From positions 1 through 64,000 of the forward strand of contig CAXIUT010000134.1 in assembly GCA_964035545.1 (NCBI GenBank): a stretch of 64,000 nucleotides of DNA. Direction: 5' to 3'. The DNA comes from Bugula neritina. Its lineage: Eukaryota; Bryozoa; Gymnolaemata; Cheilostomatida; Bugulidae. Shown here in pieces: positions 38,627 through 64,000 of this stretch. Every line of letters begins with the position of its first letter. Positions within the stretch are counted from its first letter, which is position 1. The notes below the pieces were generated by a model that saw only the letters and a program-made list of their open reading frames with translations, had not been told where the DNA came from and made no database searches. The position numbers were made by a program, and so were the translations under genes.

Positions 38627-38634
38627 ATTAGAAT
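38627..38634 (+). repeat. Target-site duplication, left copy
   Basis: ATTAGAAT is the last satellite sequence before the island. The base before it is T and the base after it is the island's first base, C. Neither matches the flanks of the right copy, so the duplication is exactly 8 bp. Confidence 0.85.
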
Positions 38635-38643
38635 CAGTGCATC
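38635..38643 (+). repeat. Left terminal inverted repeat (imperfect)
   Basis: The first nine bases, CAGTGCATC, match the reverse complement of the island's last nine bases, CAGTATATC, at seven positions. The CAGTG start resembles hAT transposon ends. The match does not extend farther inward. Confidence 0.45.
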
Positions 38644-38655
38644 ACACGGCTTTTA

Positions 38656-38741
38656 CGACTGTCAGGGTCGATCCTCATTTTGCCATTTCGCGATATTAGC
38701 CGCAATAAACAATATATTTTCGTGCGATAACATCGACTGTC
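38656..38741 (+). repeat. Subterminal CGACTGTC direct repeat
   Basis: CGACTGTC occurs at 38656-38663 (followed by AGGGTCG) and at 38734-38741 (followed by TAGGGCGC), both close to the left end of the island. This end is richer in CpG than the rest. Some DNA transposases bind short subterminal repeats like these, but two copies could also arise by chance. Confidence 0.35.
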
Positions 38742-39187
38742 TAGGGCGCTACTGTTGACGAATCAGAACAAAGAGAGCACATGAGCGCTGTAAACATGTA
38801 CGTGTTGTTATGGTTACTAATGATGATCTGCTACGTAATTTTTGTAGTAGACAACTCTCACAGAAATCATTAATTTGTCTTTTTATTATTTAGCTAACAA
38901 CTTTTGCCTAGAAAAAAGCAAAGGTAAGGTGGCTCAAGCAATCCTGTATTTTTTTAGAATGTTTTAGCTTAAATTCTGTTTGGTTTATCCTACTAGAATG
39001 TTACCTGCTGCAGCATCAACACTATCATTGCAAAACTATATCTACTTATAACAAAATCTTGATGCACATAGCAAAATTATCTACTTTATTGTGGCGGATG
39101 TGCAAGAGTTTGGAGTCATCTCATCAATTACACATAGCAACAGAAGAACACAATATAGAAATAACAGAAAGCCAAAGACAGTATACC
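38742..39187. other. Left end of island, no supported gene
   Basis: This is unique AT-rich sequence between the subterminal repeats and the end of the minus-strand gene. A 61-codon open frame at 39059-39244 overlaps the likely 3' untranslated and final-exon region of that gene on the other strand. It has no coding character, so I do not call it. Confidence 0.5.
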
Positions 39188-39193
39188 TTTATT
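39188..39193 (-). promoter_or_regulatory. Poly(A) signal for the minus-strand gene
   Basis: On the minus strand this reads AATAAA, 38 bases after the TAA stop of the last predicted exon. GT- and T-rich sequence follows. Its position supports the terminal exon at 39333-39231. Confidence 0.5.
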
Positions 39194-39230
39194 TTTAACC
39201 AAAAAAGAATTTTGTTAAACATTATATTGT

Positions 39231-39723
39231 TTAGTTCACCATAAAAAAACTGATTTTACAAGTGGTTACATCTTTTCCGAAAATAAAAGTGCCATGAAGC
39301 AGCCGAAAATGAAGTCGTCCGCTCACCAGACACCTAAAAAATAATTATGCAACATGATATTTTTAAAATTAAACACAGATATGCAAAAGTCATCACCTAC
39401 ATAATTTTTTATAAATTTAACAAGCTTGTTTAGTGAAAGTGTATAATACAAACACTAATGTTGATAGCGAAAATGCCATGTTCATGCAAGATAGTAAATC
39501 AATATAAATAAGGAGTCATATCATATCTATGTTATATATGTATTCAATTCTGGTTTATGCTTTATGCCTTTAACTATGAGTGCACAACCACTAATCCTAT
39601 TTCTACCAACACCATCTCTACCACTAACAGTACTAACGTCAGAATCAAAAGCAACTTCACCACTACTACTAATAATGTTATTATTTTATTATTATTACTT
39701 CTACTACTATACTACTGCTACTA

Positions 39724-39766
<43 letters not shown>

Positions 39767-42584
39767 GCTACTGCTACTACTACTACTGCTACTACTACTA
39801 CTACTACTACTGCTACTACTACTACTACTACTACTACTGCTGCTACTGCTGCTGCTACTACTTCTACTACTGCTACTACTACTGCTACTGCTGCTGCTAC
39901 TACTTCTACTACTGCTACTACTACTGCTACTACTACTACTGCTACTACTACTTCTACTACTGCTACTACTACTACTACTGCTGCTACTACTGCTACTGCT
40001 GCTGCTGCTGCTGCTGCTACTACTTCTACTACTGCTACTACTACTGCTACTGCTGCTGCTACTACTTCTACTACTGCTACTACTACTGCTACTACTACTA
40101 CTGCTACTACTACTTCTACTACTGCTACTACTACTGCTGCTACTACTGCTACTGCTGCTGCTGCTACTACTTCTACTACTACTACTACTACTACTAACTA
40201 GTACTACTACTGCTACTACTACCAGTACTGCTGCTACTACTACTTTTACCACTACTGCCGCCACCACCACTACTAATATTGTTTCTACTACAAGTACTGT
40301 AAATCTTACCAGCAGCAAGTTATATTGGAAACTGTTTGCTCATTTTATCATTGTATTAGTGCAATAACAAAATGTTTATATTTTAATATAGTCAAACCTT
40401 TTAAAAAACTAGGCTGCTACTTATGAACTAAGAAGTTGTGCTACCCACCTTGATATGCACTCGGCTCCAACACCAAGCAGGTGGTTATGATGCTTCTCCA
40501 CAATGGCCAGGCCATCCAGCTGTCCGATTGTATGCATCTACGTAAAAATTATTGGCATATGGTGCAAGAAATGATTAAAAACCAGATAGGTGTGCTAGAA
40601 TTTATACAGCATAATATAGAGTAAGGTAAAAGAGAACAGACCGTCAAGTGGTACAGCATAGAAACAATTACTAGCTATTATATGCTTTGTAGAAGTTGGC
40701 AAATTGTAGCCCACTAGATATGAACTTTGGTTAGCATTTTATTTTGGCTTTCAGCAACTGCTTTAATCAATAATCTTGGTAAAACCAATATGTTTACAAA
40801 TTAACACCTCCACTAGATAGGTATACAGGTCAAAATATTCCAATTGGTGACATACTAAAAGAAAATGTATATTTATTCATCTTTGAAAGATTGCTAATAA
40901 TTTATAAAACAGCGTCGAAATCACTAAAGTAACAGCGCAAATAAGTTTATTAAACAGCATTATAGGATTGCCTATTACTAGTTTCATGATTTCTATTATT
41001 TTACTGGTTTTAAACATAATATAGGCTGAAAAAGCAATATTAGTTCTCTCACTTTTGCTAACTACATTGCTTGGAAGGCCATCATAATTAGATCAGATCA
41101 AACAAATGTGTTGACAGGTAGACTGGAACAGGCCTAAAATTTGCAAGGTATAATTTAAATTTATCTGGCCTGAAATTGCTGAAACTGACAATACAATAAT
41201 ATGAGAAACAAGCAGGGTTTTTTAATAAAGCTAGCAAAAATAATTCCTCTACATATAATTAACATACAGTCCATACATATAATATATTACTATGTCCAGG
41301 CAGCAGTGCTTGTTCTAGCCAAAAGAAAACTGATTTAATGGCTGATTTTAATGGCCAACAAGAAATTTATGGCGCACAGTGGCATTGTCATATTTTTAAT
41401 ATTCAAAATTACAGTTCTAATCTATCAATCATTTTATCAATACTACTATACTATGATCTACTACTGCTGCTGGTTCTACCACTGCTACCATACTGCTGAG
41501 TAATGCAAGCTAAGTAATTTAAATTGCAATTAAAAAAATTATCGGACTTTCTTTTCTATTACCTGTCCAGTTTAGCATTTCTTTCATCATAGCTTGCCAT
41601 AGTAACTTGAAAATTCACAGGGTTTGAGTTAGACCTATGGAATATACTTACAAGTAGAATGAACCCACAGTTCTGCAATATATCATAAAAACATTCAAAA
41701 TAAAACTATAGGAAAACCAAGTAAATGCTTCTAAGTATTAGTGCAAGTAAAGATGCTATGCAATCTATCCAACAAGCAGCCAAATGTCTCAAAATAAGCT
41801 TCAGAGTTATAAATATAAAATGTTTCCAAATCAAGGCTAGCAACACTTCTGTTGTTGTGATAGCAAATTTTGCTTAATAAAGTAAGGAAACCAGCTTCCC
41901 TTGCATGACTCAATTTCTATTAAAGAAAAATTATACTCTCCTATAATCGCTGAAACACAGGCCTGTCACAAGTACATGAATGGTAAATCTAGATGTTTCC
42001 CTAAAACCATCATCAAAACAGTAAACACACTGCAAAATATTTATTTTTACTTTTTCTGCTCAAACATTTAAATGGGCTCTGCAGGATATGACAAATACCA
42101 AAATAATTCCGCTTTGTGAACTAGCAAATATGGACAAACACCCTAATATTCACGCCAATAGAAAAGTCTACGCATTTTGTGTTCTCAGCATTCTTCCTTG
42201 TGGATGAAAAAAATGGGCAACATGTGGACTGCAAGAATCAAAGCTCAGCACTTTTCATACCTGGAGTTTAAAATGCATGTTGAGTAAAATCTGGGAAGAT
42301 AAAATGGTAAATGAAGATGTATTTGAAATCACAGACCCGGATTCTCCATCGTCAAAACTGAATTTCTTCTGTCTTCACTGGGCTGGTCAACATGCCAAAG
42401 TATCTCATCCACCGCACTCGATTGCATGCATTAATATCAAAAGGAACTCATCCAGCTAGAAGAACTTATATCTAAGGTTTGAGGATGTCCTGAAACAAGA
42501 GCTTAAGGAATTTTACATAAAATCCAATCAATTTACCACCTCCCAAATGAAGGCAAAGCATTCATGCAGGATGGGCATTCAACA
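39231..42584 (-). CDS. Predicted multi-exon gene, product not recognised
   Basis: Candidate exons in transcript order are 42584-42540 (contains CPSC), 42357-42261 (FDDGESGS), 41672-41563 (ends MASYDERNAKLD), 40537-40449 (IGQLDGLAIVEKHH) and 39333-39231 (ends in TAA). Each has an AG acceptor and a GT donor, for example GTATGA, GTAATA and GTGGGT. Phases agree for exons 1-2-3 (2, then 0) and for exons 4-5 (2). Between exon 3 (ends phase 2) and exon 4 (preferred frame starts phase 0) the phases clash, so an exon is missing from my model, the frame of exon 4 is wrong, or the gene is broken. A poly(A) signal follows the stop by about 40 bases. No start codon or first exon was found. The CxxC could be half of a zinc site, but no family is recognised. 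The last intron contains a large trinucleotide repeat. Confidence 0.4.
39655..40306. repeat. (CTA/CTG/CTT)n trinucleotide repeat, about 0.65 kb
   Basis: This is an almost unbroken run of ACT, GCT and TCT triplets on the plus strand, AGT, AGC and AGA on the minus strand. Longer blocks recur inside it: GCTGCTGCTACTACTTCTAC is seen near 39848, 39890 and 40055. So it has grown by block duplication as well as slippage. All three frames are open on the plus strand, giving poly-Thr/Ala or poly-Leu, and the minus strand gives poly-Ser. These are artefacts of the repeat. It lies in the last intron of the predicted minus-strand gene, where it would be transcribed as AGU/AGC repeats. Confidence 0.95.
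41731..41916 (-). CDS. Open frame after a good acceptor; possible alternative last exon
   Basis: On the minus strand the acceptor CTTTAATAG is followed by 61 open codons (starting KLSHAREAGF) and a TAG stop. It starts in phase 0, so it could follow the exon ending at 42261 as an alternative 3' exon in place of the one at 41672. No poly(A) signal is evident close behind it, and no family is recognised. In sequence this AT-rich, an open frame of this length can occur by chance. Confidence 0.2.
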   Translation of the reverse strand, partial: KLSHAREAGFLTLLSKICYHNNRSVASLDLETFYIYNSEAYFETFGCLLDRLHSIFTCTNT

Positions 42585-42659
42585 CTGAAAACAATATAAA
42601 GGGATCCATGGCTAGATGTTCAAGACATGAATGCTAAGGGTGTCATGCATATGATCACT

Positions 42660-43899
42660 GAGATATTTATGACAATCTCTCAATATACCTTAGCATATTA
42701 AATATGCTTGTAGTTATAGCTATTACTATAGTTGTTATATATGCTACTAACTAACAAGCAATAACCGTATTACAAACATAGGTGAATGAGAAAAATAATT
42801 CAATAGTGGTGATATCAGTATGGGTATTATAATTTAGCAATTGGCATAAAAATTAAAAATGATGAATGTAATGATGGTTAAAGTTATTAGATACCTAAAC
42901 TTATACCTATATTAATTAAAACAGTGACTTGTTGAAATATAAATAAATTAATATTCATTAAAACTTCATTGAATTAAAAGATAATTTTGAAGCAAAATGA
43001 ACAGTTAAAATAAATTTATTCACAATAATTTTAACCCTTTATGATCAACCTTAAAATTAAAACTCAAGTATTTGTAGCAAAGTTTTGAATAAAGTTGGAT
43101 TTTGCAACGGTTTGAGATACTTTCACTAGCACTATGTGCATAACTGTATAAGTTTCATCATATTGATACAGTTACATACTCATACTCAAATATATAGTAA
43201 CATTCTCAATAAATCAGGTATTAGTATTGAGATTGCGTTGGTCGAGATAACATCATGGTTACTCACTTATGGTTGTATACTTTAGCTTATACTTCTAGTT
43301 AAATGTACTACTGCCCTATTATTAAACTTAATCTTAGTCTGTCATCACTTAGAAAACATAGTTCAGTCTTGAGGCAAATCAGTTTGAGTGTCGTTAGTTT
43401 CATTACCAGTAGTCATTAGATTTAGTCAGTGTACTTGAAATTTATTGATCAATATTACCATCAAATTTAAGTGACTATTATTATGAATACTATATCCATC
43501 AAATATCAAAAACTGCAAACTTAATAAGTATGATTAAGAAAATCACAGCCAACATGGCGATGATTGAATTGTATGCTCGTGCTATTGAGATTCCTAACAT
43601 AAAGGTTAACCTCACATAATGATTAGATAACAATCATATTCAATTTTTCATTACTGCCATTTGTTAGGAAAAGCATCCAGTCATAATTGCTCCTATGCTC
43701 CAAATAAATAATTCCTTAGCCCCATTTAACAAAAAAACCTTTCCCATCAGGGGTTTCTCACAGGGATGCCAACTATAAACTTGCACAAGTTTTATTTAAT
43801 AGTAAATTAATTTACTTATATAAAAATTATTACATTCACAGTGATACATTGATGGTCATAATATTTTATATATCAATATCATCATTATGATACAATTAT
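42660..43899. other. AT-rich sequence, no feature seen
   Basis: This is unique AT-rich DNA between the predicted minus-strand exons and the low-complexity zone. I see no open frame above about 40 codons with splice support, no repeat and no RNA gene. Confidence 0.5.
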
Positions 43900-45110
43900 C
43901 ACTATTACTATTAGTATTACTATATGATAACTTATCAATAAAACTTCATAAAGTTCATGAAAAACATTAAATATAACAATTTAATCAAAACTAAATCAAT
44001 GCCAAAGGGCAAGGTAGAGTCAAAATTAAATAAGCTATAGGGCGTAGGCTATAAGTATAAGTATAATTATCACTATAAAACTAAGTGACTGATGAGTTGG
44101 TACTTGGTAGCATAAACATAAAATGAGCATAAACAAACATAAACTAAAACACCATTACATATATGATTTATGACCCTTAGGTTTCTACTTTTAATTTTAG
44201 CTTTACCTTGTCTTTTGGCATTGGTTATTGTATTAGTTTAGGTTACACCACTATCAATTACTATGACTATGAATATGAGTGAGTAGCCTTGCCCGTAGAA
44301 CTAGGAGTAGGAGTAGATCACTAGTAGTAGAAGTATGGGTATCGGGGTATGACTATAAGTATAACTCATAGTCACAGTATGAGTATCTTACTGAAAGTGA
44401 TACTCATAAACCTAAAGTGATAATCATAATGATACTCAGCATGACATGTAAGGTGTATGATACTCAGTCTCAGTTATACAGAGTAGAATATCAAACTTTA
44501 AGTTTAACTGCTACTTTAAAGTAGGACTTAGACATCACCATTTATGGGTATGTCATACCGTCATAGACTATAGACATAGTATAAGGTTCTAATACTATAA
44601 GCATAACTATTACTATTAGTATTACTACTATAAGTATAAGTCTTTAAGTTTAAGTATAACTATATTTACTATTGATCAATTTCGATTTGATACTATCACT
44701 ATTAGTATTAGTATTACACTTTACAGTATTACTATTAGTATTAGTTGGTCCCATACTGATAGTGATACTCATATCACTACCATTATGATTATCATAATCA
44801 TTATGATTATGATTAAGAGTACTACAGTGATAGTTATACCCACATTTATGCTGATTACTAATTTAATATCACTCTAATCAGTAACTGTTATCACTATGAC
44901 TATCAGTGAATTATTTATCATTTTATGATTTTATCATAGTCATAATGAAACTGATTGAGTGATACTTATAGTAATAGTTATAGCTATACTGGCAGTGATA
45001 CTGATAGTGATACTGATAGACTTAGACTTAGAGTGAGAGTCAGAGAGAGAGTGATATTCATATTTATAAATATGATTATTATTATTATAAGTATAACATT
45101 AACTAAGAGT
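43900..45110. repeat. Cryptically simple AGT/ATT/TAT-rich zone
   Basis: Short words such as ACTATTAGTATT, AGTATAAGTATA and ATTATGATTATG recur without a fixed period. At 44588-44598 the minus strand reads ATAGTATTAGA, an 11-base match to the core of the satellite monomer. The zone gives rise to a spurious 91-codon frame at 45124-45399, whose N-terminal Leu/Val/Ile run is translated TTA/GTA repeat. Confidence 0.7.
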
Positions 45111-45654
45111 AAGAGCAAATGTAATGTCTAATCGTGACATTATAACTATTACCATTAGTGCATTCGTATTAGTATTACTATTAGTAGTAGTATTACTAAT
45201 AATTATTAATCTATTTTTCAATAATAACCATGCATATGCCCTAGCCTATAAGTTTGAGTACGCCTATGGTATTCCTAATTTAAATTGGATCTTTGGGTCA
45301 TTTGATCAAAGGAGCAGCGGACTCCGATTAGGCATTGGACCTTGGGGCGAGGTTCAAGTAAAACCGATATTCGGTCAAAACAGGTCTAGTCTATCATAGT
45401 GGCCAGTAATTTATCTGCGCAAGCTTACTCGCCTCTTGTGTTCATAATAAATTCGGCCTAACTGCTCCGCAAATGGGGCGATAATCATAAGTTTCATAAT
45501 AATATATTATTAGAGACTAATTTAGTATGTACAGTATACACATGTTAGTAATTACAATCTAGTTCCATTCTTCAAGAAAACCCATTACGAATCAGGTTGG
45601 TACTATTGCTATTAGGTTGATAATATTATTAGTAAAACAATGTGCTCATTTTTG

Positions 45655-45790
45655 ATATAAATTATTATTACTACTAGTACAGTAGACGTAGTAGTACTAG
45701 TAGTAGTAGTAGTAGTACAGTAGTACTAGTAGTAGTAGTAGTACTCTAGTTACTAGTAGTAGTACTAGTAGACCTACTAGTAGTTCTGAT
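45655..45790. repeat. (TAG/CTA)n microsatellite
   Basis: Runs of AGTAGTAGTAG and inverted TACTAGTAC units alternate, so the tract is both a trinucleotide repeat and locally self-complementary. There is no coding potential. Confidence 0.8.
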
Positions 45791-46500
45791 GTCTAATACC
45801 TTAATAGTTAGTTATTACTATTACTGATTACTCAATTAGTATTACCAGTAGGTAGTAAGAGTAAGTCTAATCTAATGCTGTAATAGATAATTTTTATGAC
45901 TATCACTACGCCCTATGACTATGAGTTGGTATCAAGTTATATTTCATTATTAATTGATTATGCGTTTGTTTACTAAGAAAAATCTAATGGTAGTCTCAGT
46001 CCGTTAACTTATATTTAGTTATAATCACTTACAGTACTGATTCTTTCTCTTTCAATTTGGAACTTCGTTGTTTTCTGTTCCAATAATTATAATCATAATG
46101 CAATAAATTTAAAAGTTACCCAGTGTGAGTGACTAACTAACTACAATTTAGGTTCATTCTTGATGAAAACACTATGAGTATAACTATAAGTATTTACTCA
46201 CTTATAATCGACGCAATAGTAATAAAAAGAAGTTTTGCAATGAATTGGGATCCTAGCCTGGAGCTGGTGAAATTGCATATAGCTAATTAACACGGGGTAT
46301 ATTATGTTTCTGAATATTATTATATGTATTTAACTGTTAAGAATGTAGTGAACAATATTGGTGTATAGATAATTAGGGTTCACTATTACTATGAGTGTCC
46401 TAGTCATAGTTGAAAATAAGATGTTCATAATGGTCATTCTCAAAATATAAAAATATATGCATAACCATTAACAAGTTGAAAATATTTGTTTAAAATGATT
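45791..46500. other. AT-rich sequence, no feature seen
   Basis: Nothing here could be supported: no splice-bounded open frame, repeat or RNA. If the plus-strand gene has an upstream exon or promoter it should lie here or farther left, but I could not identify it. Confidence 0.45.
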
Positions 46501-46536
46501 TATAGACCATGGATAACGATGAATAAAGCTATTCAG

Positions 46537-49512
46537 TCTGTTTATCCCAACTTGAGGCTTTGGCAGAAAAAGGTATCGAGGAAGATAAAATCAAAAATGG
46601 TACTGAAACAATTTGCAACTTGAAAAACGATGATTGAAAAGGCGTCAAGAAAGTAAGTGCATGTTATACTAACTATGATGAGTTTTGTAGCTTGGTTTTT
46701 AATCAGTTTTCTCCATACACAATATTGAATTTGTTCAATCTTTTAGAATTGTCACAAACCTGTTAGACCAAGCTGAAAATATAAGTGATGAGTTGAAAAA
46801 AGCTGCCTCAGAGCAATTGACAGGTTATTTTTACATCTATTCTAAAGAAAAGTTCTGGTGAATACATAAATGTTGTTTTTGTACTGGCACAATTTTTGCT
46901 GCACAATTTTGATATGTTCATTTTAGATTTTGATAAACATAACCATCACACAATGATCCTAAATGTTGTAGTACTGTAAATGGCGAAAATGAAAAATTAT
47001 TGCGTGAACGTAAAGTTTCCTACCTAATTTTGTATTTTAGCCACCTAATCAACTTGTAAAAACACGAATAAATAATATTAAGTCCAAATTAGGCTTTTTA
47101 CAGCCAATAAGCACCTGATAATATTCATGTATTTATGGCTCATAGAATGTAATGAATTGTACATACAACTTCTTTATCTCACTTTCAAAATACTGTCAGA
47201 CACCTATATATATGCTAACTTTTTTACTACAATTTAAGGCTGTTTATGTTTTCAGATGTTCAACAATTGTTAGAACTCCTTGAGCAGTATGCCCGACAGC
47301 CTCAAAGAGCACCAATGTATATAGAGGCTACCTCAGTTAAATGGGACAAAATCCGATCAATTCTTCATAGGAATACAATTACTGGCATGGGAACTAGGAA
47401 ACTCTTGATTAGTAGGTAATTTTTAGTAACTTTTATTTTAATTAACCAGCCATCACCAATTTTAGGTGTTGTTACTATTATTTTGCATTTTTTATACCCA
47501 ACAATTTATAATGTGTTGTTTTAAGCTAAAACACTGTTTTAGCTTGTAATCTATGTTTTAGGTGAAAGGCTGTCTCTACTCCCATCAACTTGCCAATTGT
47601 GTAACAATACAATGGTTAAAAAATTTGTAGCTTACACCCTCAAAGTCATCTCTATAATCAATGGTAAATTATTCAAATTGTCCAATCAAATTCTAAAAAA
47701 TATTTGGGTCATTTGTGTTTCAAATAATCGCTAGTATTTTATATTATATTTAAGTGAAGTGAAATTATTGGTCATCTATGTTTATTCAATCAGTTGTCAA
47801 TTATGCATTTATCTGTTACATGATAACTTCTAGAGTATACATATAATTTCTTAACATTTTTGCCTTATTTAGCTATTGTTATAATTTGCTTCTCACAATT
47901 TCATATATTGACACTATCTTTTTTCTAGGGCGCACTGAAACGGTGATTCTCCTTATTGTGAGCTATGCTCATGGACACGTGTTCAAGTGAGTGAAAATTT
48001 TCCTAAACTCAGGCTGTGGCCACTAACTCCCCAAGGAAAAGTATTCGTGACCTTCAGTTATTTGTTACACATCAGCACCTTACAGCATCATTCTCCAACT
48101 TTAAGCATGAAACGCTTGTTCTCTAGTCTAAAGTTCTTGGCAGTATTGGATGGCAGGGTTAATTTTATTAGTTTTTAATGCTTTCGAACACATTTGTTCA
48201 TTTACTATTTGTTCACTGTTAAAATGTAGCATTCATTTATAAGCTTTTTATAATCGTAAATTTGCATGCTAAAAGAAGTTAGCATAATTTATTACTCCCC
48301 TGCACAGTTTTACTGGATGTGGATGCTTAACATCAAAGATGGCTTTTACTGGGCAGTGAACCCATGACTACTGGCTTACTAAACCAGATTTCTAAACCCT
48401 AGGCCACAGCTGCTCCTTGTAATGAAATTTATATCTATTTGTATTATATTTTAGACCATTGGAAATGAAGATCATTTCTTTTTAGTCTGTTTGCTAACCA
48501 CTAATAGACTATCAAAAGAACTATGAAACTAGAGGAAAACAAAATAATGTTGTACAAATTTGAAGCTCAGAAAGTGTGGGTAGGTGTTAAATGCTATGAA
48601 AAACCTAAAATCTCCAGTATCTACTTGAGCAGATGTCTAATCTGTAGTGAGCACCATTGTAGTACGTAATCTATTGTTTTGTGTTCACTAAGTTTAAATT
48701 CCGATTAACTATTCCAGAGGCTATCGCAAAATGCTGCTCTCTGATGTAATGCTGAAGAGGCAACCATGCATTAAAACCAGCTGAACATATGTAGGAATAG
48801 ACACATATTTTCATGTGATGTTAGTTGAACAATTATTCAGTGTAGGTTTTGAATTATTTGAGTTCAATGCTGTAAATGTATCATGTTATGTTTCATGTAT
48901 TATTTTTAGTCACTTGTTAATTTTGCATCAAATAACTTTACAAAAATAGTAGTAAATTATTATAATGGTACGCAATATCGTTAAAATGCTACAGTAGCAA
49001 GTGGCAGAGACTCGGCATGTATAGCTAATTTTGATATTGCTAGGTCTCTCTCTGCCTCCCCCCCCCCTCTCTCTAGGCCTCCCCTATTTCTTTCTTCATC
49101 TTTCAATTGAGAGTAAAGCAGCTGTCTTGGTCACCAACTATTTCCCATTCTGTACACTTGGCCTAACCATCTCAGACTCTGCAAAACTTGTTGGTCATAT
49201 TGCCAGAAACTTAAAAATCTGTTTCAATGTAGAAAGCAGACCTGGCAGCCATTGGTTCATTGTTTATAGTTTGATAAAGGGCTTCATAGCTTGTTGATAA
49301 TTGTTTTGACCCTAAAGGTGGCTAATTCATATTTAATGTTGGCTGATCTTGTTTGTATTTTCCCAAAACTTCATAATTCATATTTGGTATTTTTGATTGT
49401 CATTTTAATGGTTAGTGTATAATATTCTCATGTACTATTATTTCTTTTTAGTGTTGAAGGAAAGTTGCCCGATCCATCTTTCACCAGGAAAACTAAGAGC
49501 TCCGATATTTGA
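46537..49512 (+). CDS. Predicted six-exon gene with a one-base shift in exon 1, product not recognised
   Basis: Exons are 46537-46652, 46747-46823, 47256-47411, 47562-47663, 47929-47986 and 49452-49512 (TGA stop). Every border is AG/GT (for example GTAAGT, GTGAGT, TTTTCAG, TTTCTAG). The phases agree at all five junctions. From the ATG at 46630 they give 158 residues. The N-terminal half is helix-like and charged (DQAENISDELKKAASEQL, then LLELLEQYARQ), followed by QLCNN and a hydrophobic stretch, TVILLIVSYAHGH. Upstream in exon 1 a second frame is open (LEALAEKGIEEDKI) but lies one base out of register. The run of five A at 46623-46627 is where the two frames would meet. That is either a homopolymer error or a real frameshift, and in the latter case the gene is broken. 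The last exon could instead be 50662-50716. The family is unknown. Confidence 0.45.
48007..48126 (+). CDS. Short open frame in the last intron; uncertain exon
   Basis: This 40-codon frame contains NSPRKSIRDLQLFVTHQH and ends in TAG. It follows CCTAAACTCAG, which would be a passable acceptor. It begins only 26 bases after the donor at 47987, too short for an ordinary intron, and its phase does not match exon 47929-47986. The overlapping frame 47987-48178 is open too. It may be a missed exon or chance. Confidence 0.15.
   Translation, partial: TQAVATNSPRKSIRDLQLFVTHQHLTASFSNFKHETLVL
48302..48416 (-). repeat. tRNA-derived SINE head
   Basis: On the minus strand a box A-like TGGCCTAGGGTTTAGA (48406-48391) is followed by a box B-like GGGTTCACTGCC (48363-48352). 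The spacing is that of a tRNA promoter. The sequence begins GGAGCAGCTGTGGCC and has no good acceptor stem, so it is a SINE relic, not a tRNA gene. It lies in the last intron of the plus-strand gene in antisense orientation. Confidence 0.5.
49050..49075. repeat. CT/C tract
   Basis: A short pyrimidine run, TCTCTCTCTGCC, then about 11 C, then TCTCTCTC. It is a simple repeat. The open frame at 49031-49297 that begins across it is not supported. Confidence 0.7.
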
Positions 49513-50661
49513 ATTATAGCATAGAAGAGGTTAGCACAAGGGTTTTCTACACCAGTTCAGGTAAACTGGCTACATGATAATGGTGCAAGGTTTTAAACTT
49601 ACTATCATTCCATTTTGATTTTGCATTATGGGAATGGATGCTCATACATATGGACTTGTGCTTGTGGTTTGCATTTACTTATGGTTGGGGTCTCATCTTT
49701 CCAAACATATTTTAATGAAAAATCAATTTGGAAATGCAATGCTTGGTAACTTAGTGTATAACATCAATCATATTTAGTGAAAATACTTAGTTTTTTCACA
49801 TCTGCTCCAGTTTAACAATATGCTGCTGTGATAGACTTTTTAGTACAGGTCTGAAATCACCTATATAACCCCATTGAAAATGTAAATTAGCATTTGGAAA
49901 TGAATTATTCTTTTAATAATGTGTCACAAGCAGCCAATTATATACATTATTTTCGCTTTCTGTAAGCGTTTTATTAGGTGTTGCATTTTTGGTGTTTTAG
50001 GATTTGAGATTGACTTCAAAACTCCAATTTGCAACATTTTAGGAATGTCATGTCTAAATATTTATTTGTTAGGTTTACCAGGAACGTACCAGATCATTTC
50101 TAGGGGTTATTTAGTGCAATTCTGCATTTAGATCATGTAAACATCCACTCAAGTTAGTGCATTGACAAATTCACAATAGTGGTAAAAACCAGGTTCATAT
50201 TACGTTGTCATTATGTTGCAGCAAGTAACCTCTGATGTAAATTTATGTTTACAACCTATCAATATGCTCTGACCTACAGTCTTTATTGCCATTCAAGGTG
50301 TTCCTCACTGCTGGTCAACCCCATTAACCCCCAACTTACTGCCTACATAGAAGACTGTCTACTCTCCCTTCATTGTACATAGCTCATACAATAATTTGGA
50401 TATTTGCTTTTGCAGATTCATTACATAAAATACCAGCCATTGTGCTAAAAAGTAAAGTTTTGTTGTAGTCTCATCTACTAGTACTCATAGTTCTACCACA
50501 AGTGTTATGTTTTTTATGAAATTTTTGTTTTGAGGTTTTTCAGTTTCACTAATTACTGCTTTAATGGTCATTGTCAATCGATTTCTGGTATAGAAACAAG
50601 TTGTTTCAGAAAAGCTGTACATATAAATTCTTAATTCCCCATGTTATTTTTATTATTGTAG
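49513..50661. other. AT-rich sequence, no supported gene
   Basis: This follows the predicted TGA of the plus-strand gene. A 70-codon frame at 49919-50131 has no splice or start support. I see no repeat or RNA gene. It may be 3' untranslated sequence, or an intron if the 50662 exon is used. Confidence 0.45.
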
Positions 50662-50716
50662 ATATCTTGGTCTGCCTCCCAGTTTGCTCCTGATAAGTGG
50701 TGAAGAAATCGGCTGA
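50662..50716 (+). CDS. Alternative terminal exon of the plus-strand gene
   Basis: The acceptor TTATTATTGTAG is followed by 17 open codons (YLGLPPSLLLISGEEIG) and TGA at 50714-50716. It starts in the phase left by the exon ending at 47986, so it can replace the exon at 49452. An AATAAA lies at 50950-50955, 234 bases past the stop. Which ending is used cannot be told from the sequence. Confidence 0.3.
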
Positions 50717-50990
50717 TATGTAGATGCATTAGTGGAGAAATTGAGATAGACTAAGGTCTTTAATTTTCCTAATTATCGCAATAACATAACTTTTCTTGCT
50801 AAGTTTATAACCTGTATAATACATGTTTTTCTCAATTTTCATATCACTTCACTTGCCTCAGGAAATGACACTAACTTTGAACCTAAGCATTCTAAGTGCT
50901 TGAATCTTTCACAGCAAATAATTATTATACAAATTATTCTCAGTCACTGAATAAAGGATTTGTGAGATTCATGCTGATTGTCTTATTTAA

Positions 50991-51130
50991 TACTTCTCTA
51001 TTGCTCTTATAAAAATTACAGCTTTTAATTGTTGAAATATTTACAGTTAATAATTAAAGGGGTGAGCCCATCATCCGTTGTTTAGCCTCAGCATCATAAC
51101 TCTATAGAGGCTGCTAATTCACTGAATACC
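50991..51130 (+). repeat. Partial copy of a hairpin (MITE-like) element with its flank
   Basis: This stretch matches 54605-54746 in reverse complement over about 140 bp with few differences. It includes the shared words GTTGTTTAGCCTCAGCAT and GCTAATTCACT. It contains one arm of the hairpin at 54549-54658 plus neighbouring sequence. The match therefore extends beyond the hairpin itself, pointing to a larger repeated unit. Confidence 0.7.
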
Positions 51131-51838
51131 AGGTTATTCTAGTTTATGTTTACATAACTGGTATGACCATATCTTAGTTTAATATATGCAGCTTGAATTT
51201 TTTAAAGTCGAAGAGCTATAATAAAGTTCTAGCTAAGATTTTATAGTTCAAAGCATAATGAATATACTGATATTATAAACTGCTGGCTCAGCCACTTGCC
51301 CAGTTTACATGTTGGTAACCCACTGCAGCATGAACTCTGACGCTAATGTGCTTTGACATTTTAGTTTATAAAACATTGATTTGTGATGTACATTTTGATG
51401 TGCACTTGCAGAAATTGAGGAGCTGTTGATAAAGGTTGATCAATGCTTGGCCAGCCATAATATAATTGCTGTATGAAGATATACTAGTTCTCCCAGTTAT
51501 AGCATGTACATACTTACTAGTAATAAGTGAATTTCCAGACAACCTATTTAATGAAGCAACCGCAAATGATAATAGCAGCAACAAGTGTTGGTAATAAAAT
51601 CTGAATAGGAATTGCACATAGCTGTTAATTAGTTCACACAATGCTCTTATCACTTGAGTAACACAAACAAGTAGCCCATGCCAGCAACTGCTAGTAGGTT
51701 TCAGAACATAAATTTGCTATAGTGGATGGCTTTGGAATGATGAAAGTCATGAATACTCGAAGTGCTACAGTGATCAGCTTACAATTATGAAAGTTTGCAC
51801 ATAATATGATATCTAATTCCTATTTTAATGATGAAATT
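51131..51838. other. AT-rich sequence, no feature seen
   Basis: Unique sequence between the partial hairpin element and the left arm of the large inverted repeat. The 95-codon minus-strand frame at 51366-51653 is low in coding character and has no splice support, so it is not called. Confidence 0.45.
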
Positions 51839-52479
51839 CAAACTTGACATTCCTTGATATGTTTTCTCTAATATCTTTCTTTGTTTTTCGAAATTATGTT
51901 TATGCTCTTCACAATTTGGTCAAAACGTACACCATTTTTCAAGTTTCACTGCAATTATCTAAATTCTTCATATAGTGGTTCTAGTTACGCTCCTGTGACT
52001 AATTATAACGTTCCTAGTACGTTTGCTGCTCTGTGCGCTATCACAATAACATATAGTACCCTCTCGCACAAATTGGCAATATATTGGATATCTGCCAATG
52101 TAATGTACCCTATTTTACATTAGCAGTTAGTTGCATCTTCTCACCATGTTACAATCTGTTGAAAATGCCTCAGCAAAACATAGTTCTTCGTTTGTTTGGC
52201 AGAGTTAATTTCAGCTAAATCACCTCACTTCACTTTGCAGTCTTGTCAGTAAAGGTCTGTCTATAGTGCAGCAGGTGCACTTTCAGTTTCTCTAACTCAC
52301 ATGTAATTCATTTATGTACATTGTATTCCATAAAATCAATTTAAGGTTTAGCCCATGCAGTGTTCAGTAACTAATTAGTATGCATGTATGTTGTCCTCCT
52401 GTTGAATAATAATATTTCAAAATAGCCATATTTATTATGCATGAGTAGGATTTGCATAAGTTGACAAAAAAATTTGCCA

Positions 52480-52550
52480 CAGAGTAGGGTTGAACCACCA
52501 CCAACAAACACATCACTGGCGCCTTTAACCTCTGGACCACACAGCCATCA
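52480..52550 (-). repeat. tRNA-derived SINE in the left arm
   Basis: On the minus strand a box A, TGGTCCAGAGG (52539-52529), is followed by GTTAAAGGCG and a box B, GGTTCAACCC (52496-52487 region). Together they look like a type-2 tRNA promoter. The acceptor stem does not close, so this is a SINE head. Its counterpart lies at 56398-56462 in the other arm. Confidence 0.6.
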
Positions 52551-52800
52551 TGAATAGTATGAGCACTATATTAGAAACTATCATTACATAAATATTTGGA
52601 GCCTCAAAATATGGGTTTTAATTATTAGGCTGTCAATTAATGTTGACTATAGCAGTGGCTAGCTATTTTCATAAACTGTTGCAATAGTCTCGGGTTACTA
52701 GCAAAGCTAATGGTTTTGAACAAATAACCCAAAAGTTAAAAAATAAGTATAGCTTGCATATTACTAGCTACAAAAACAGGTCTGAAATAGACTGGTAAAG

Positions 52801-52912
52801 CATGCTCTTGCCTATTATTGTAGAGTTTGCAGATGTGCTCCAAAATAAAACTTGAACATGCTCTTGCCTATTATTGTAGAGTTTGCAGATGTGCTCCAAA
52901 ATAAAACTTGAA
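52801..52912 (+). repeat. Tandem duplication of 56 bp
   Basis: 52801-52856 and 52857-52912 are identical copies beginning CATGCTCTTGCC and ending AAACTTGAA. The mirror position in the right arm (near 56140-56180) has a single copy. The duplication therefore arose after the two arms formed. Confidence 0.9.
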
Positions 52913-54112
52913 CTGTATGTTATTACATAAGTATTTGTATGCAAAAGAGTGATGGACAAAACTGAGTTTTTGGAAAACAACATACTTGAAGTAAACTTTG
53001 ACAATGGTGTGTTTTTTCTTCATAGACTAGCACAGTTATAGGGCCTATAGCATAACTCTCTAATCATATGAATGTTTATGAAGCCCACAGCTCCTGTAAG
53101 GGTGGCATTGTAATTTGAAACTAAAAATTATGTTGCTGCATTGTGTTTAAGGTATATTATGGAGCAAAATTTGGTGTTGGTAGCCTACCCCAACTGGCAG
53201 TTGTATATAATAAGTACTGATAATAGCAAGGTTAGTATGACCACGTGCTGGCTCTCTGCAGTGTGTATATAACTAACCTCTTGAATAATTGCGCCAATTT
53301 TAAACTCTTGGAAGTTGGCCAAGTTAACAGATCACAGCCAGCCACAGGAGACAAAGCATTACAGCTAGCCATATATTATATACTGATGCACTTGGTAGCA
53401 GAGTGGCTAATCTAATATAGTTCATATTTCAACACCCTTTACTTTGGGAATACAGCCTCTTTTTTTAGGTTTACCTAACAAACTATGAAAATATTTAAAC
53501 TAATATTCTGATAATTTAGAGGTACATTTTAAAAACTAGGTTAATTGCACTTGTTTGCGCAACAACAATAATAAAATATATATTATGCGCAATATGATAA
53601 AAAACACATGATACTATATTATAATATATTATAATGATAATAATATATTATTATAGGTACCATTACTGTATTTAATAACTCTGATGGTTGCCAAAAAAAT
53701 GTATCACACCAATTCTGTAATTACATCAAAGATTATGATAAGAAAATAGAACTAGCTAGGCAGCAGGTTGGAATATAGAGTATCAGTGGAACATTGTTCA
53801 TATAGAACGTAAAGCACCTGGCAAACAGCCAGAAACTGAAAAGCACGACCTCAAACTAACTGTGAATTAAATTGATCAACATAAGCTTTGAGCTAGAATG
53901 CTGTTAAAATTCATATACAAACTGCAATAAAAAGGATTGAATGGCCAGTTGAGATAATTTCATGCTTTGAATATATATTATATTCTAATTGTCACCATTT
54001 AGGTGCATGCAGTAACTATATAAATAATAAAACTGAGCTTGCCTAATAAGTTCTAGTTTACGTTGCTCATATAAATTCTTGTGAAAACATAAACTCTTTT
54101 GCTACGTTTCAA

Positions 54113-54162
54113 CATGAACATAATATGTTCATGTATATGTTCTAGTATATTATACTAGAACA
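54113..54162. repeat. Two adjacent perfect short hairpins
   Basis: 54113-54133 is a 10-base perfect inverted repeat around one central base (arm CATGAACATA). 54138-54162 is a 12-base perfect inverted repeat around one central T (arm TGTTCTAGTATA). They lie in the spacer between the arms of the large inverted repeat, close to its axis. Confidence 0.85.
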
Positions 54163-54289
54163 CTAGAATACTCGAACATGCTTTATCTGTTAACTTTGAA
54201 ATTGCAGTAACCATCAGTCAAAAAATGCATCTATAGCAGTTCAAGGAAAAAAGTTTTAAAAATAATAAATCATGCTTATATTGTATTAG

Positions 54290-54345
54290 ATTATTTATTA
54301 ATATATTATATATATGTATATAGACGTGTGTGTGCGCGTGTATCT
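54290..54345. repeat. (TA)n and (TG)n microsatellite
   Basis: A run of TATATATA passes into GTGTGTGTGCGCGTG. Simple alternating purine-pyrimidine DNA. The open frame at 54328-54531 that begins beside it is not supported. Confidence 0.75.
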
Positions 54346-54548
54346 ATAAGGACCTATAACAATAATAAACATATAGAAAACACAAAGCCAAAATTGTCTT
54401 CTTTCAATGATATATTTTTAATGATGCTGAGGAAGAAGTTGATAATGCAACTCCTAAAAGCATATGTTGCTCAATGTTTTTTTTTGTATCTGCCGCCAAT
54501 ACTTGTATGTGGTTGCCAACATGTATTTTAAGTTAAATCTTTGCAAAT

Positions 54549-54658
54549 GTTGTTTAGCCTCAGCATATTACAACTCTATTATAGGGGCAGCTAATTCTCT
54601 AAATGGTATTTAGTGAATTAGCAGCCTTTATAGAGTTGTGATGCTGAGGCTAAACAAC
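54549..54658. mobile_element. 110-bp hairpin MITE-like element
   Basis: The ends are GTTGTTTAGCCTCAGCAT and its reverse complement ATGCTGAGGCTAAACAAC. The arms continue inward through AACTCTAT and GCTAATTC to a short loop near 54600. A one-armed copy lies at 51077-51130. Long terminal inverted repeats with no coding space are typical of MITEs. No clear target-site duplication was found. Confidence 0.6.
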
Positions 54659-54896
54659 AGATGGTGGGCTCGCCCCTTTAATTATTAACTGTAAATATTT
54701 CAACAATTGAATAAGCTGTAATTTTTATAAGAGCAATAGAGAAGTATAATATATGCTTGCTCATGTTTATGTTCACGCATGCGTGTGGATGTCTGTGCAA
54801 GAACACAACATGCACAGTTAGTTTAAGGTCACACTTTTCATTTTCTGGCTCTTTGCCAGGTGCTTTATGTTCTATATGAACAATGTTCCACTGATA

Positions 54897-55269
54897 GCTC
54901 GAACAGGTTGAATGTCACAGGAACAAAAAAAATATGAAAAGATAAAGAAACTTATGTTCTCCAATATACTTTTTTATTTTTTTCAAAAGCCAATTCATGT
55001 TTAAGTTATAGCTTGTTGAAAAACATAGTCCCCCTTCCACATTCTTTTCAATTTATACGCTCCTGACTTGTTATTGTGTCTCAATATGCCTTGTATTTGA
55101 GTGCTTGTTAGTCTCGCTTCACTAACTTTGCCTATACTTCACAAGTGCCAGTGCTGCTGGCTCAAAAGCTAAATGTTATAAACTGTCAGCTAAAACCCAA
55201 TCTTGTATTCCTAGGTTGGTTGGCCTAAATAAAACAATAGTCAAATCATGATTTCATGTTTTAAAAATT
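54897..55269. mobile_element. About 373-bp sequence inserted in the right arm
   Basis: The left arm reads GGAATATAGAGTATCAGTGG without interruption. In the right arm the equivalent sequence is split after CACTGATA and resumes at CTCTATTCTAACCTGC. The extra sequence has TA at both edges, but no inverted termini and no open frame. It could be an insertion here or a deletion in the left arm. Confidence 0.5.
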
Positions 55270-56397
55270 TACTCTATTCTAACCTGCTGCCTAGCTATAG
55301 TTCTATTTTTGATGTATAATTACAAAATTTGTGATACATTTTTTTGGCAACCATGTGATTTATAAAATGCAGTAATGGTACTTATAATATTATATTATTA
55401 TCATTATAATATATTATATAGTATTATGTGTGTTTTTATTATACTGCATAATATCTATTTTATTATTGTTGTTGTGCAAACAAGTGCAATTAACCTAGTT
55501 TTCAAAATGTACCTCTAAATTATCAGAATATCAGTTTAGATATGTTCATGCTTTGTAAGGTAAACCTAAAAAAAGAGGCTGTATTCCCAAAGTAAAGGGT
55601 GTTGAACTATGAACTATATTAGATTAGCCACTCTGCTACCAAGTGCATCAGTATAATATTATATGAATAGCTCTGATGCTTTGTCTCCGGTGGCTGGCTG
55701 CGATATGATAACTTGGCCAACTTCCAAGAGTTTAAAATTGGCGCAATTATTCAAGAGGTTACATACTGCACAGAGCTAGCAGTGATAGTAACCTTGCTAT
55801 CGGCTGTACTTATTACAACTGCCAGCATATAAGCTGCATTGTAGAATGCCGTTGGGGTAGGCTAGTAAAACCAAATTCTGCTCTCTAATATACCTTAGAC
55901 ACAATGCAGCAACATAATTGTTCGTTTCAAATTACATTGCCACCCTTACATGAGCTGTGGGCTTCATAAAGATTCATATGATTAGAGATTTATGCTATAG
56001 GCTAGCTATGATGAAAAGAAAACACCATTGTCAAAGTTAACTTCAAGTATGTTGTTTTCCAGAAACTCAGTAATGTCCATTTATATCTCTCGCATACAAA
56101 TACTTATGTAATAGCATACAGTTTAAGTTTTATTTTAGAGCACATCTGCAAACTCTACAATAAGAGCTTGCTTTACCAGTCTATTTCAGACCTGTTTTTG
56201 TAGTTAGTAATACGCAAGCTACTTATTTTTAAACTTTTGGGTTATTTGTTCAAAACCATTAGCTTTGCTAGTAACCCGAGACTATTGCAACAGTTGACTG
56301 CTATCAACATGAATTGACAGCCTAATAATTATAACCCATTTGCACGCAAAATATTTATGTACTCATAGTTACTCATATAGTTGGCAATTTATTAACG

Positions 56398-56462
56398 ATG
56401 ACTGCGTGGTCCAGAGGTTAAAGGCGTCAGCGAGAAGCTGGTTGGTCATGGTTCAATCCTAT
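56398..56462 (+). repeat. tRNA-derived SINE in the right arm
   Basis: Box A (TGGTCCAGAGGTTAAAGGCG) and box B (GGTTCAATCC) lie in plus orientation, at the position that mirrors the left-arm SINE. Both arms carrying it means the SINE was inserted before the inverted duplication. The 73-codon frame 56340-56561 that spans it is spurious. Confidence 0.6.
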
Positions 56463-58556
56463 TATGCTGCATTTTTTTTTGTCAATTTATGCAAATCCTA
56501 CGCATGTATAATAAATATGGCTATAATTGTAAAGTTTTTTTTAACTTTTGTTCAACAGTAAGACAACATACATGCATAATACTTAGCTACTGAACACTGG
56601 GCTAAACTTTAAATTGATCTTATAGAATACAATGTACTTAAAATAATCATATGTGAATTAGAGAAACTGGAAGTACAACTGCTGCACTATAGACAGACCT
56701 TTACTGACAAGACTGCAAAGTGAAGTGATTTAGCTGAAGAAATTAACTCTGCCAAACAAACAAAGAATTATGTTGTGCTGAGGCATTGTCAATAGATTGT
56801 AACATAGTGAGATGATTCAGCTAAGTGCTAATGTAAAACAGGGAACATTATATTGGCAGAAATCCAATAGATTGCCAATTTGTGCGAGAGGGTACTATAT
56901 GTTATTGTGATAGCGCAGAGCGGCAAACGTACTAGGAATGTTATAATTAGTCACAGGAGCGTAGCTAGAACCACCATATGAAGAATTTAGATAATTGCAG
57001 TGAAACTTGCAAAATGGTGTATGTTTTTACCAAATTGTGAAGAGCATAAACAGAATTTCAAAAAACAAAGAAAGTATATTAGAGAAAACATATTAAGGAA
57101 TGTCAAGTTTAACTTTTAGACTTTATAAAATGAATCCCCTGTGCTACAGCAGTGGAACATGGAGGGTGTAAAATTTTACTTATTATGCAACAACGTTCTC
57201 AGAAAATTTTTTATTGAAAAATTAAAAAAGTATATGAAAGAGGAATGCAAGAGCTATCTTTTCATGTAAAATTTGTTAATGTGAGACAAAAACTGTTCGA
57301 GCTATCCCCTGGAAACCGTTTATATATAACATAAAGCAGTGCCTGAATGTGGAAAGTAATGACCTTAAACTAACTGTGTGGCACATACTGAGATCGATAT
57401 GTGCCATGAATTGTGTTAGTTTATATGCATGGCGTATGGCATGGCGACATAGTCACAAGAGTTTGTTATGCAAGTGCAGGCTAAAAAATAATATTCTATA
57501 TAATAAAAAAGTGTTATAAGTTATTTTATTGCAAATAAATGGTATGTGATAATAAATTGCATAGCATAGCAAAAAATGCTGCACATGTATAGTTACCACT
57601 AATCAAAAATATTAAATTATATTCATATATTTTAAATAGCATGCATGAATGCAAGATTTTAACTCAAATGTGAAACAAATTTTACTATAGTGTTGTATTT
57701 CAATGGGTTACAGATATTTACTAAAATGTCAAAAATTATAGGTCGACTCAATTTTCATCTGTGCCATTTGCTCATTTTCTAAATTCTACGTAATAATTTA
57801 TATGTGCATCTATAGGTGTGAAATAGAATGGTTACATGTGCCTGTACAACTGGTAAAAGTATAGTAAAACAAGAAAAGAATTAATGTTTACAAGCAAATA
57901 AATTACTATTGAAATTCAATTTTGGGCATTATAAAGCTTTCCATATGCAATATTGTTTTACATTTATTCATATGCCAAAAATTATTTATATATATATATT
58001 TCTTAAAATTATATTTTCTCTCATCAGCTTGAAAATTGTTTTTTTATATAAAAGAGTTTGAGAGTTTATATTAATAAACCAAAAACTGTTATAACATTTT
58101 AATTTTTTACAAGAGTGTATGAATTATGGTGGCATTCAGTCTGCAAAACTATTATTTAATGAGAAGACAATTATGTTTTAATCATGCAGATAGATTCAAG
58201 GAGTTATAAACATATATGAATTGAAATAGAGTGAGAAGACAATTATGCTTCAAGTAAAACTATAAGACCAAGTTCCTATCCAATAGATACAGTGATATGA
58301 GCCTTTCTCTAGAACAAAGTCTAAAAGGAGTGGATTTATATCAAAAAGTCAGACCTGCATCTATTAAGATTTTTCATTCAAAAGTGATAAATTTTGTTAA
58401 TTTTTATTCATAACTCATAGCTTTTGAAATATTTTGGAAGAAAATATTTTTTCAAAATACAGTTACTGCTAAGAATATCTGTATTGATATCACCCCTAAC
58501 TTTATCCACCACTTGTTCTAATTGCTATAATCATCACCTAGCCAATGAAATTAAAC

Positions 58557-58574
58557 TGGCTGTAGCTACAGCCA
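58557..58574. repeat. Perfect 18-bp palindrome near the right end of the island
   Basis: TGGCTGTAG is followed directly by its reverse complement CTACAGCCA. It lies 140 bp inside the right end, beside the CpG-containing GCGCCTCGTTAGGCG. It could be a subterminal protein-binding site of the element. Confidence 0.6.
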
Positions 58575-58705
58575 ATCAATTACTCATAACGATTGCGCCT
58601 CGTTAGGCGAACATTGATGACCATTTCTATATAACTCAATACAAAGCCCATTACCACTGATTGACCCGAAGTTCTCTACGACTTCTATAGTGGTATAGGA
58701 TAATA

Positions 58706-58714
58706 GATATACTG
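58706..58714 (-). repeat. Right terminal inverted repeat (imperfect)
   Basis: Read inward on the minus strand this end is CAGTATATC. It pairs with the left end at seven of nine bases. The first four bases, CAGT, are identical. Confidence 0.4.
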
Positions 58715-58722
58715 ATTAGAAT
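58715..58722 (+). repeat. Target-site duplication, right copy
   Basis: ATTAGAAT follows the island's final ACTG and runs straight into ATATAGTATC, as expected for the resumed monomer. Deleting one copy together with the island restores a normal 23-bp monomer. Confidence 0.85.
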
Positions 58723-63800: not shown

Positions 63801-63803
63801 CCA

Positions 63804-63998
63804 CTAGAGTTGCCCCACCTTTCGCAACACCTTGGCCTGCACACTCTCAGAGAAAGGGTTGCTGGGATCAATGAAGACAGTGGTGTTCAGCATAGCCTCG
63901 GTGAGCTCCGGGGGTTGATAGAACGTCGTATCCACCACTGGCGTCATTCTCTGTAACATCAGATCTGATTTCACCATGTCATCCGCTCCAGCCGCCAT
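63804..63998 (-). CDS. First coding exon of an unrecognised gene, cut by the window edge
   Basis: On the minus strand AGATGGCGG gives a good start context at 63998. It is followed by 64 open codons (MAAGADDMVKSD, later TTVFIDPSNPFSESVQ) and TAG at 63804-63806. The GC content and balanced residues differ sharply from the satellite beside it, so this is very likely real coding sequence. A donor-like GAAAG/GTGGGG at 63819/63818 suggests the exon ends at 63819 after VLRK and that the satellite lies in the following intron. The in-frame TAG would then be intronic. The 5' end, including any upstream frame, is beyond the window. The family is not recognised. Confidence 0.6.
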   Translation of the reverse strand: MAAGADDMVKSDLMLQRMTPVVDTTFYQPPELTEAMLNTTVFIDPSNPFSESVQAKVLRKVGQL

Positions 63999-64000
63999 CT

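Follow-up and report, generated by a model that had tools for sequence, protein, structure and literature searches.

Insertion of a 20-kb Element into Satellite DNA

Which transposase could have moved a 20-kb island that lies in satellite DNA of the bryozoan Bugula neritina and has no visible transposase of its own? The window analyzed here is the whole stretch of 64,000 nucleotides at positions 1 to 64,000 (forward strand) of contig CAXIUT010000134.1 in GenBank assembly GCA_964035545.1, and the island occupies positions 38635–58714. A first-pass annotation had described it as the footprint of one transposition event and had pointed to hAT or P-like transposases. We propose, with a probability of roughly 0.85, that the island belongs, as a non-autonomous copy, to a family of giant DNA transposons, on which a KDZ (Kyakuja-Dileera-Zisupton) transposase would act in trans.

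Direct reading of the junctions revealed ATTAGAAT at both 38627–38634 and 58715–58722, and the bases beyond these copies differ, which gives an exact target-site duplication (TSD) of 8 bp and an element of 20,080 bp. The 23-bp satellite unit contains ATTAGAAT, so the match is by itself weak evidence, and the join across the empty site was therefore tested instead of the 8-bp match alone. The left flank with one ATTAGAAT and the right flank, 1,200 bp when joined, were aligned to the rest of the array. They matched satellite positions 33948–35147 with three mismatches and positions 11726–12925 with five, in both cases with no gap; the third to fifth matches had 4–6 gap positions, as did the lower-ranked matches of two uninterrupted control stretches. 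Thus, the array gained the island and one 8-bp duplicate and nothing else. The exact duplication and the continuity of the satellite, both claimed previously, were confirmed, the latter by the gap-free join rather than by the 27-bp marker used before.

The satellite itself (window positions 1–38634 and 58715–63800) is AT-rich, with 95% matches at a 46-bp period in addition to its 23-bp unit, and shows a strong GC skew (~0.5) on one strand. It ends at 63800.

Copies of the Element in the Genome

The queries against the 215.8-Mb genome were the first 300 bp, of which 8 bp are the TSD and 292 bp belong to the element, and the last 308 bp. At least 35 left-end matches (35 of 35 candidates scored) and at least 40 right-end matches (40 of 42 candidates scored) were obtained. 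When ends on the same contig and strand at a distance of 5–45 kb were paired, 32 pairs of 16,975–32,468 bp resulted (median 18.2 kb), leaving three left and eight right ends unpaired. One pair (C8:1966757; C and L numbers are our labels for contigs and loci) is truncated by approximately 200 bp at its outer left end: the match begins at query base 209, and the 100 bp beyond it in L055 fail to align. No pair shorter than 17.0 kb was present among these matches; no search was aimed at derivatives that have just the tips in common.

Both flanks were read for 12 pairs, 11 of which have an exact 8-bp TSD, all different. A thirteenth pair (C2:21304382), which carries a KDZ domain, has AATTTGAA on both sides, giving exact 8-bp TSDs in 12 of 13 pairs. 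Hence the ends do recur together with duplications of their own, the point that the first-pass annotation had proposed to check, and its description as a giant element is also supported by the paired copies. An assembly join or a segmental duplication could be imagined, since the contig (64,241 bp) is mostly satellite and the evidence is assembly sequence. Such an origin is almost certainly wrong: the satellite is gap-free once the island and one duplicate are removed, and further copies with the same ends occupy other sites with private TSDs. Together, the TSD, the gap-free join, and the recurring ends confirm that the island is a genuine transposed element, inserted in a single event.

On one contig, two 17,026-bp copies (C101:601154–618179 and 635623–652648) lie about 17 kb apart in opposite orientation. 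They are probably separate insertions because their right flanks differ.

A KDZ Transposase Gene in the Longest Copies

A genome-wide search with the KDZ domain (PF18758) identified ten places (20 of 20 candidates scored), and no match was found in 14 control genomes. Five of the ten places coincide with the five longest copies (26.1, 26.1, 26.1, 28.6, and 32.5 kb), 10.4–10.6 kb from the left end; the other 27 copies have no KDZ-domain match, and the other five places lie outside all 32. By the catalytic domain (over the curated cut-off in 5 of 32 copies) and the 8-bp TSD, the element family belongs to the KDZ superfamily.

In L059, a 1,051-bp piece of one KDZ-bearing copy, the exons CRHALVLKALDMDRGEVFAYPYIMQ and FIATDVMCQYYPWL...VMHAKAHTWTCQ could be read across GT-AG-like borders. 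The two exons, joined and used as a query, recovered these five copies again, with two pieces matched in each. These matches contain one or two in-frame stops each, which in L059 fall within the presumed introns. Three weaker matches near C6:2456635–2461685 (45–69% identity) represent another KDZ relative. A protein database search with the padded KDZ exons returned ten candidates, none at E ≤ 0.001.

Traces of the same gene are present in copies designated type B (17.0–18.6 kb; L039–L048 and L056–L057): all six that were fetched match L059, with exons at 72–80% nucleotide identity. The locus at C6:14265383 (L050) matches it as well. In one type B copy read by eye (L043/L044), stops and frame changes interrupt the KDZ exons. 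Pfam frame scans of type B L040 and part of L039 gave nothing, despite the decayed exons that tblastx with L059 found there, so such scans can miss split exons.

Four further KDZ domains (C4:11721561, C4:11728328, C5:10985459, and C8:6196648) occur in stop-free frames of 451 amino acids outside all 32 copies. They represent another KDZ lineage and a potential source of transposase.

One rival explanation is that the KDZ gene is only a passenger, that is, a KDZ element nested in a giant element driven by another, unseen transposase, as might be suspected from the confinement of matches over the cut-off to 5 of 32 copies, which are the five longest. However, the decayed matching exons lie in the same orientation in every type B copy fetched, the sequence upstream of the KDZ exons is common to type A copies, and an 8-bp TSD fits KDZ, which makes this explanation unlikely. 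Because of the decayed exons in type B and the upstream sequence shared with type A, the KDZ gene looks ancestral to the family.

The earlier attribution to a giant hAT or P-like element had the 8-bp TSD in its favor, and the left end begins with CAGTG, which resembles hAT termini. It was not sustained by the domain searches. The hAT dimerization domain (PF05699) is absent from all 32 copies, its 14 matches in the genome being elsewhere (intervals compared by eye); six frames of the island contain no hAT or P domain; and the five longest copies carry KDZ exons. Likewise, no Pfam match to a P-type transposase or THAP domain was found in six frames of the window copy, in L040, or in part of L039. 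Membership in the hAT or P superfamily was rejected on these grounds and seems hardly credible.

Content of the Window Copy

The copy in the window (38635–58714, plus strand) starts with CAGTGCATCACAC and ends with GATATACTG, of which only CAGT/ACTG is inverted; more fully, it opens CAGTGCATCACACGG... at 38635 and closes ...AGATATACTG at 58714. Its left module (38635–45741, plus strand) is shared with type B copies at approximately 94% identity, and the outer part of this module is 98–99.8% identical to the transposase-bearing copies. A (TAC)n microsatellite at 39696–40256 is the source of long low-complexity open frames. Farther in, three plus-strand segments retain similarity to other copies. 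An exon-like remnant at 46527–46649 shows 49% identity over 41 amino acids to type B L043:8300–8422. The segments 46743–47006 and 47243–48241 are 67% and 70% identical, respectively, to all five transposase-bearing copies, where the latter ends approximately 1.1 kb upstream of the first KDZ-domain match. At 47933–48130 (plus strand) there is a weak match to CxC3, a KDZ-associated cysteine cluster (E = 0.017, below cut-off), which we treat only as a lead.

No transposase is visible in the window copy, in agreement with the first-pass annotation: in a six-frame Pfam scan of the island nothing exceeded the curated cut-off, and at E ≤ 0.5 only CxC3 and DUF7269 (E = 0.25) appeared. Apart from frames in the TAC microsatellite, no open frame exceeds 116 amino acids, and no intact gene was found. 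Substitutions in 40335–45634, scored against L041 and L053, show no codon-phase bias beyond that of shuffled positions. Megablast of 38635–46000 against phages gave no match. The intron-containing cargo suggested previously is not upheld as intact; it may be better read as the remains of a multi-exon transposase gene.

Could the window copy nevertheless be autonomous and encode a KDZ transposase that escapes recognition because it has diverged too far or is cut too finely by introns? Homology to the region that lies upstream of the KDZ exons is retained, and Pfam frame scans also missed the type B exons. In addition, two 180-bp stretches at 47–48.7 kb exceed the shuffled 95% point for codon-phase bias, with 6–7 substitutions each and one comparison copy each: at 48535 all six substitutions fall in one phase (chi-square 12.0 vs. 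4.0 at the 95% point), and at 47075 chi-square is 8.9 vs. 7.0. On the other hand, the island has no match to L059 (blastn E ≤ 1e-5, tblastx E ≤ 1e-3), though the same search found the type B exons at 72–80%; there is no KDZ match in six frames; and long open frames are lacking. We regard autonomy of this copy as very unlikely and read it as one that would have lost its catalytic KDZ exons. Because no catalytic exon was detected, though sequence upstream of the KDZ exons is kept, the copy is probably non-autonomous and was probably mobilized in trans, and recently.

Recent Insertion and Nested Elements

Several copies are nearly identical to that in the window. Window positions 45800–49800 are approximately 100% identical in four other copies and 95–96% identical in four older type A copies (among the best 40 of 191 candidates), and positions 40300–45800 are approximately 100% identical in four copies (among the best 28 of 3,775 candidates). 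When the last 1,336 bp were compared with 29 other right-end loci, four were identical, one was 99.93% identical, and one 99.78%. The young copies in the window and at C8:1850866, C5:4193922, and C3:16701448 have different exact 8-bp TSDs and thus represent independent recent insertions.

These sisters also show that 20 kb, the size given in the first-pass annotation, is not the natural size of the unit. The copies at C5:4193922 and C8:1850866 are 17,455 bp long and that at C3:16701448 is 17,445 bp, and the core of the window copy is about 17.46 kb. To within 1 bp, its 2,625 extra bp are accounted for by a nested element of 2,566 bp, a 2-bp TSD (TG), and a 56-bp tandem duplication, with the nested element explaining most of the difference.

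The nested element (54813–57378) has the terminal inverted repeat CACAGTTAGTTTAAGGTC and is flanked by TG at 54811–54812 and 57379–57380, and the corresponding site is empty in six related copies (L010–L015). At least 27 other near-full-length matches at 96–100% identity (among the best 40 of 350 candidates) indicate a young family. Its only Pfam match is DUF4389 (E = 0.22). Its CAC ends and 2-bp TSD resemble those of CACTA/EnSpm elements. An older inverted copy of the same family, 82% identical, lies at 51834–53867 (minus strand). The 56-bp tandem duplication (52801–52913) is single in two older type A copies, as seen from match overlap in L052 and L054, and length arithmetic alone suggests that the unit is probably single in the near-identical sisters too. 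Nested inserts were also observed in a sister copy at C6:2324864–2344268, which carries one of ~0.79 kb (3-bp overlap at the join) and one of ~1.16 kb (8-bp overlap).

Conserved Right Terminus and Mosaic Ends

To characterize the ends, 12 of 30 right-end loci were compared with the window in 20-bp bins. In seven diverged right ends (L022, L025, L028, L029, L030, L032, and L038), the outer three bins, which correspond to window positions 58655–58714 (plus strand), are 95–100% identical, and identity then falls to 71–81%; the next 580 bp differ by 19–29% while the outer 60 bp are nearly invariant. This is the pattern expected of a transposase-recognition end, which these 60 bp presumably are. 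Three other right ends belong to close relatives (90–100% throughout), and the remaining two show no clear contrast (L020, outer 90–100%, inner 85–92%; L021, outer 85–100%, inner 79–92%). At the left end, identity in the more diverged L049 is 75% over the first 20 bp and 100% over the next 20 bp, which shows that strict conservation does not extend to the outermost left bases. A search of the terminal 600 bp for inverted repeats gave no tip-to-tip alignment among the matches listed.

The two ends of the window copy have opposite affinities. Over the leftmost 1,050 bp, the window copy is separated by 2, 4, and 5 substitutions from the KDZ-bearing L004, L005, and L002, respectively, by 21–25 from five type B copies, and by 27 substitutions and 9 gap positions from the older type A L053. 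In two KDZ-bearing copies that were scored, identity is 98% at 40300–41950 and 43788–44130, with unmatched sequence between, and then declines to 91–92%, 84–85%, and finally 81% by 45294. At the right end, in contrast, the window copy is 97–100% identical to older type A copies and 83–84% identical to the KDZ-bearing copies. Because the left is closest to the KDZ-bearing copies and the right to older type A, the two parts seem to have different histories.

We consider these mosaic ends the most interesting feature of the element. One tentative explanation, possible though not favored, is that non-autonomous members stay mobile by exchanging ends, and that a left end was recently exchanged between the lineages, in either direction. 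If so, giant non-autonomous families could gain fresh ends that match the current transposase.

Proposed Mechanism and Its Significance

In the mechanism that we propose, a KDZ transposase made by a 26–32-kb copy or by a related KDZ gene would act in trans on the shared ends and insert the unit at cuts staggered by 8 bp. Its landing in the satellite would be recent, and the nested 2,566-bp element would have been taken up either before or after that landing; the six related copies read at that site are without it. This proposal is supported by the KDZ exons in the five longest copies, the decayed exons in type B, and the homologous upstream sequence in type A. It also agrees with published accounts in which KDZ/Zisupton elements make 8-bp TSDs (PMC12730594) and are multi-exonic (PMC9297572).

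Several observations weigh against the proposal. The window copy has no KDZ domain recognized by Pfam in six frames of the whole island. Its CxC3 match is weak and is absent from the result of a genome-wide CxC3 search, which gave a single place outside the copies and listed neither the window match nor the transposase-bearing copies; at E = 0.017 and not recovered genome-wide, it was not accepted as proof of KDZ in this copy. The sequence read from KDZ-bearing copies amounts to 1,051 bp of one copy, so that intactness of the transposase is only putative, and the other KDZ genes with long open frames on C4, C5, and C8 could equally supply it. Recognition in trans is assumed, given that the right ends of KDZ-bearing copies are only 83–84% identical to that of the window. 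The pair at C6:2324864 has no 8-bp TSD, only a 4-bp overlap (GAGA), and a degenerate TSD pattern applied to three of the five KDZ-bearing copies matched at the expected place in two (sequence read for one of them) and gave no match in the third. Finally, the inverted repeat between the ends is only 4 bp (CAGT), compared with 139–241 bp in Cryptococcus KDZ elements (PMC12810828).

The family apparently exemplifies, in an animal, young giant elements of a poorly known superfamily, with near-identical independent insertions. In line with an animal host, the genome has at least 143 matches to seven-transmembrane receptors (147 of 265 candidates scored; none in the 14 control genomes), a family that is large mainly in animals. 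Copies without a recognizable KDZ domain (27 of 32), which are those of 17–20 kb, outnumber the KDZ-bearing ones. Short derivatives with internal deletions are the form in which many DNA transposons spread. Should such forms prove truly rare in this family, sequence within the element may be required in cis. With near-identical copies and mosaic ends at hand, both trans-mobilization and end exchange can be tested.

Outside the element, an open stretch on the minus strand at 63801–64000, just beyond the satellite, reads MAAGADDMVKSDLMLQRM...SVQAKVLRKVGQL. It may be the first exon of a gene that contains or adjoins the satellite; the stretch has no Pfam match at E ≤ 0.5 and no PDB sequence match at E ≤ 1. 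No tRNA genes were found in the window.

Comparison with Known KDZ Elements

The literature on KDZ, Zisupton, and giant transposons includes cases from brown and green algae, fungi, fish, and nematodes, among others. A 2019 review of giant transposons does not use the term KDZ in its main text (PMC6431247), and two further papers are relevant for mentions only (PMC7599744 and PMC8226300).

Cryptococcus KDZ1–3 are ~9–11 kb long, have a CxC1 domain in addition to their long inverted repeats, and make TSDs of 8 bp (KDZ1) or 4–8 bp (KDZ2 and KDZ3) (PMC12810828). They share the KDZ core and the 8-bp TSD with the Bugula family, and the 4–8-bp range would cover the 4-bp overlap at C6:2324864.

Zisupton elements of fish and nematodes are similar in their 8-bp TSDs (PMC12730594) and multi-exon KDZ transposase; in Pristionchus, the transposase genes have 18–31 exons, and inverted repeats are present, with no duplication detected (PMC9297572). 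However, Zisupton is described with terminal inverted repeats (PMC12730594, PMC9297572), and the tips here share only CAGT, which does not place the family in the Zisupton clade. Kyakuja elements have 7-bp TSDs, CA..TG ends, and no inverted repeats (PMC12730594); the ends of the Bugula element and its lack of a long inverted repeat fit this description, but its TSD is 8 bp rather than 7, which departs from Kyakuja.

The closest parallels are with giant algal elements. In Ectocarpus, giant KDZ elements are generally >10 kb and up to 30.3 kb long and contain nested unrelated inserts; the transposase is often pseudogenized, and some giant families lack it and are presumed to be mobilized in trans (PMC12477816). 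The Bugula family resembles them in size, nested inserts, decayed transposase, and transposase-less copies presumed to be moved in trans. It differs in its animal host and its mosaic left and right ends, and whereas the Ectocarpus inserts are generally fixed among copies, the insert examined here is absent from six related copies. A 31.7-kb KDZ element of Chlamydomonas reinhardtii, of the same size class and superfamily in another host, has been seen to transpose (as cited in PMC12477816), an activity that was observed there and is only inferred here. Thus, the Bugula element joins an already described class of giant KDZ elements, with its assignment to KDZ made at the superfamily level only.

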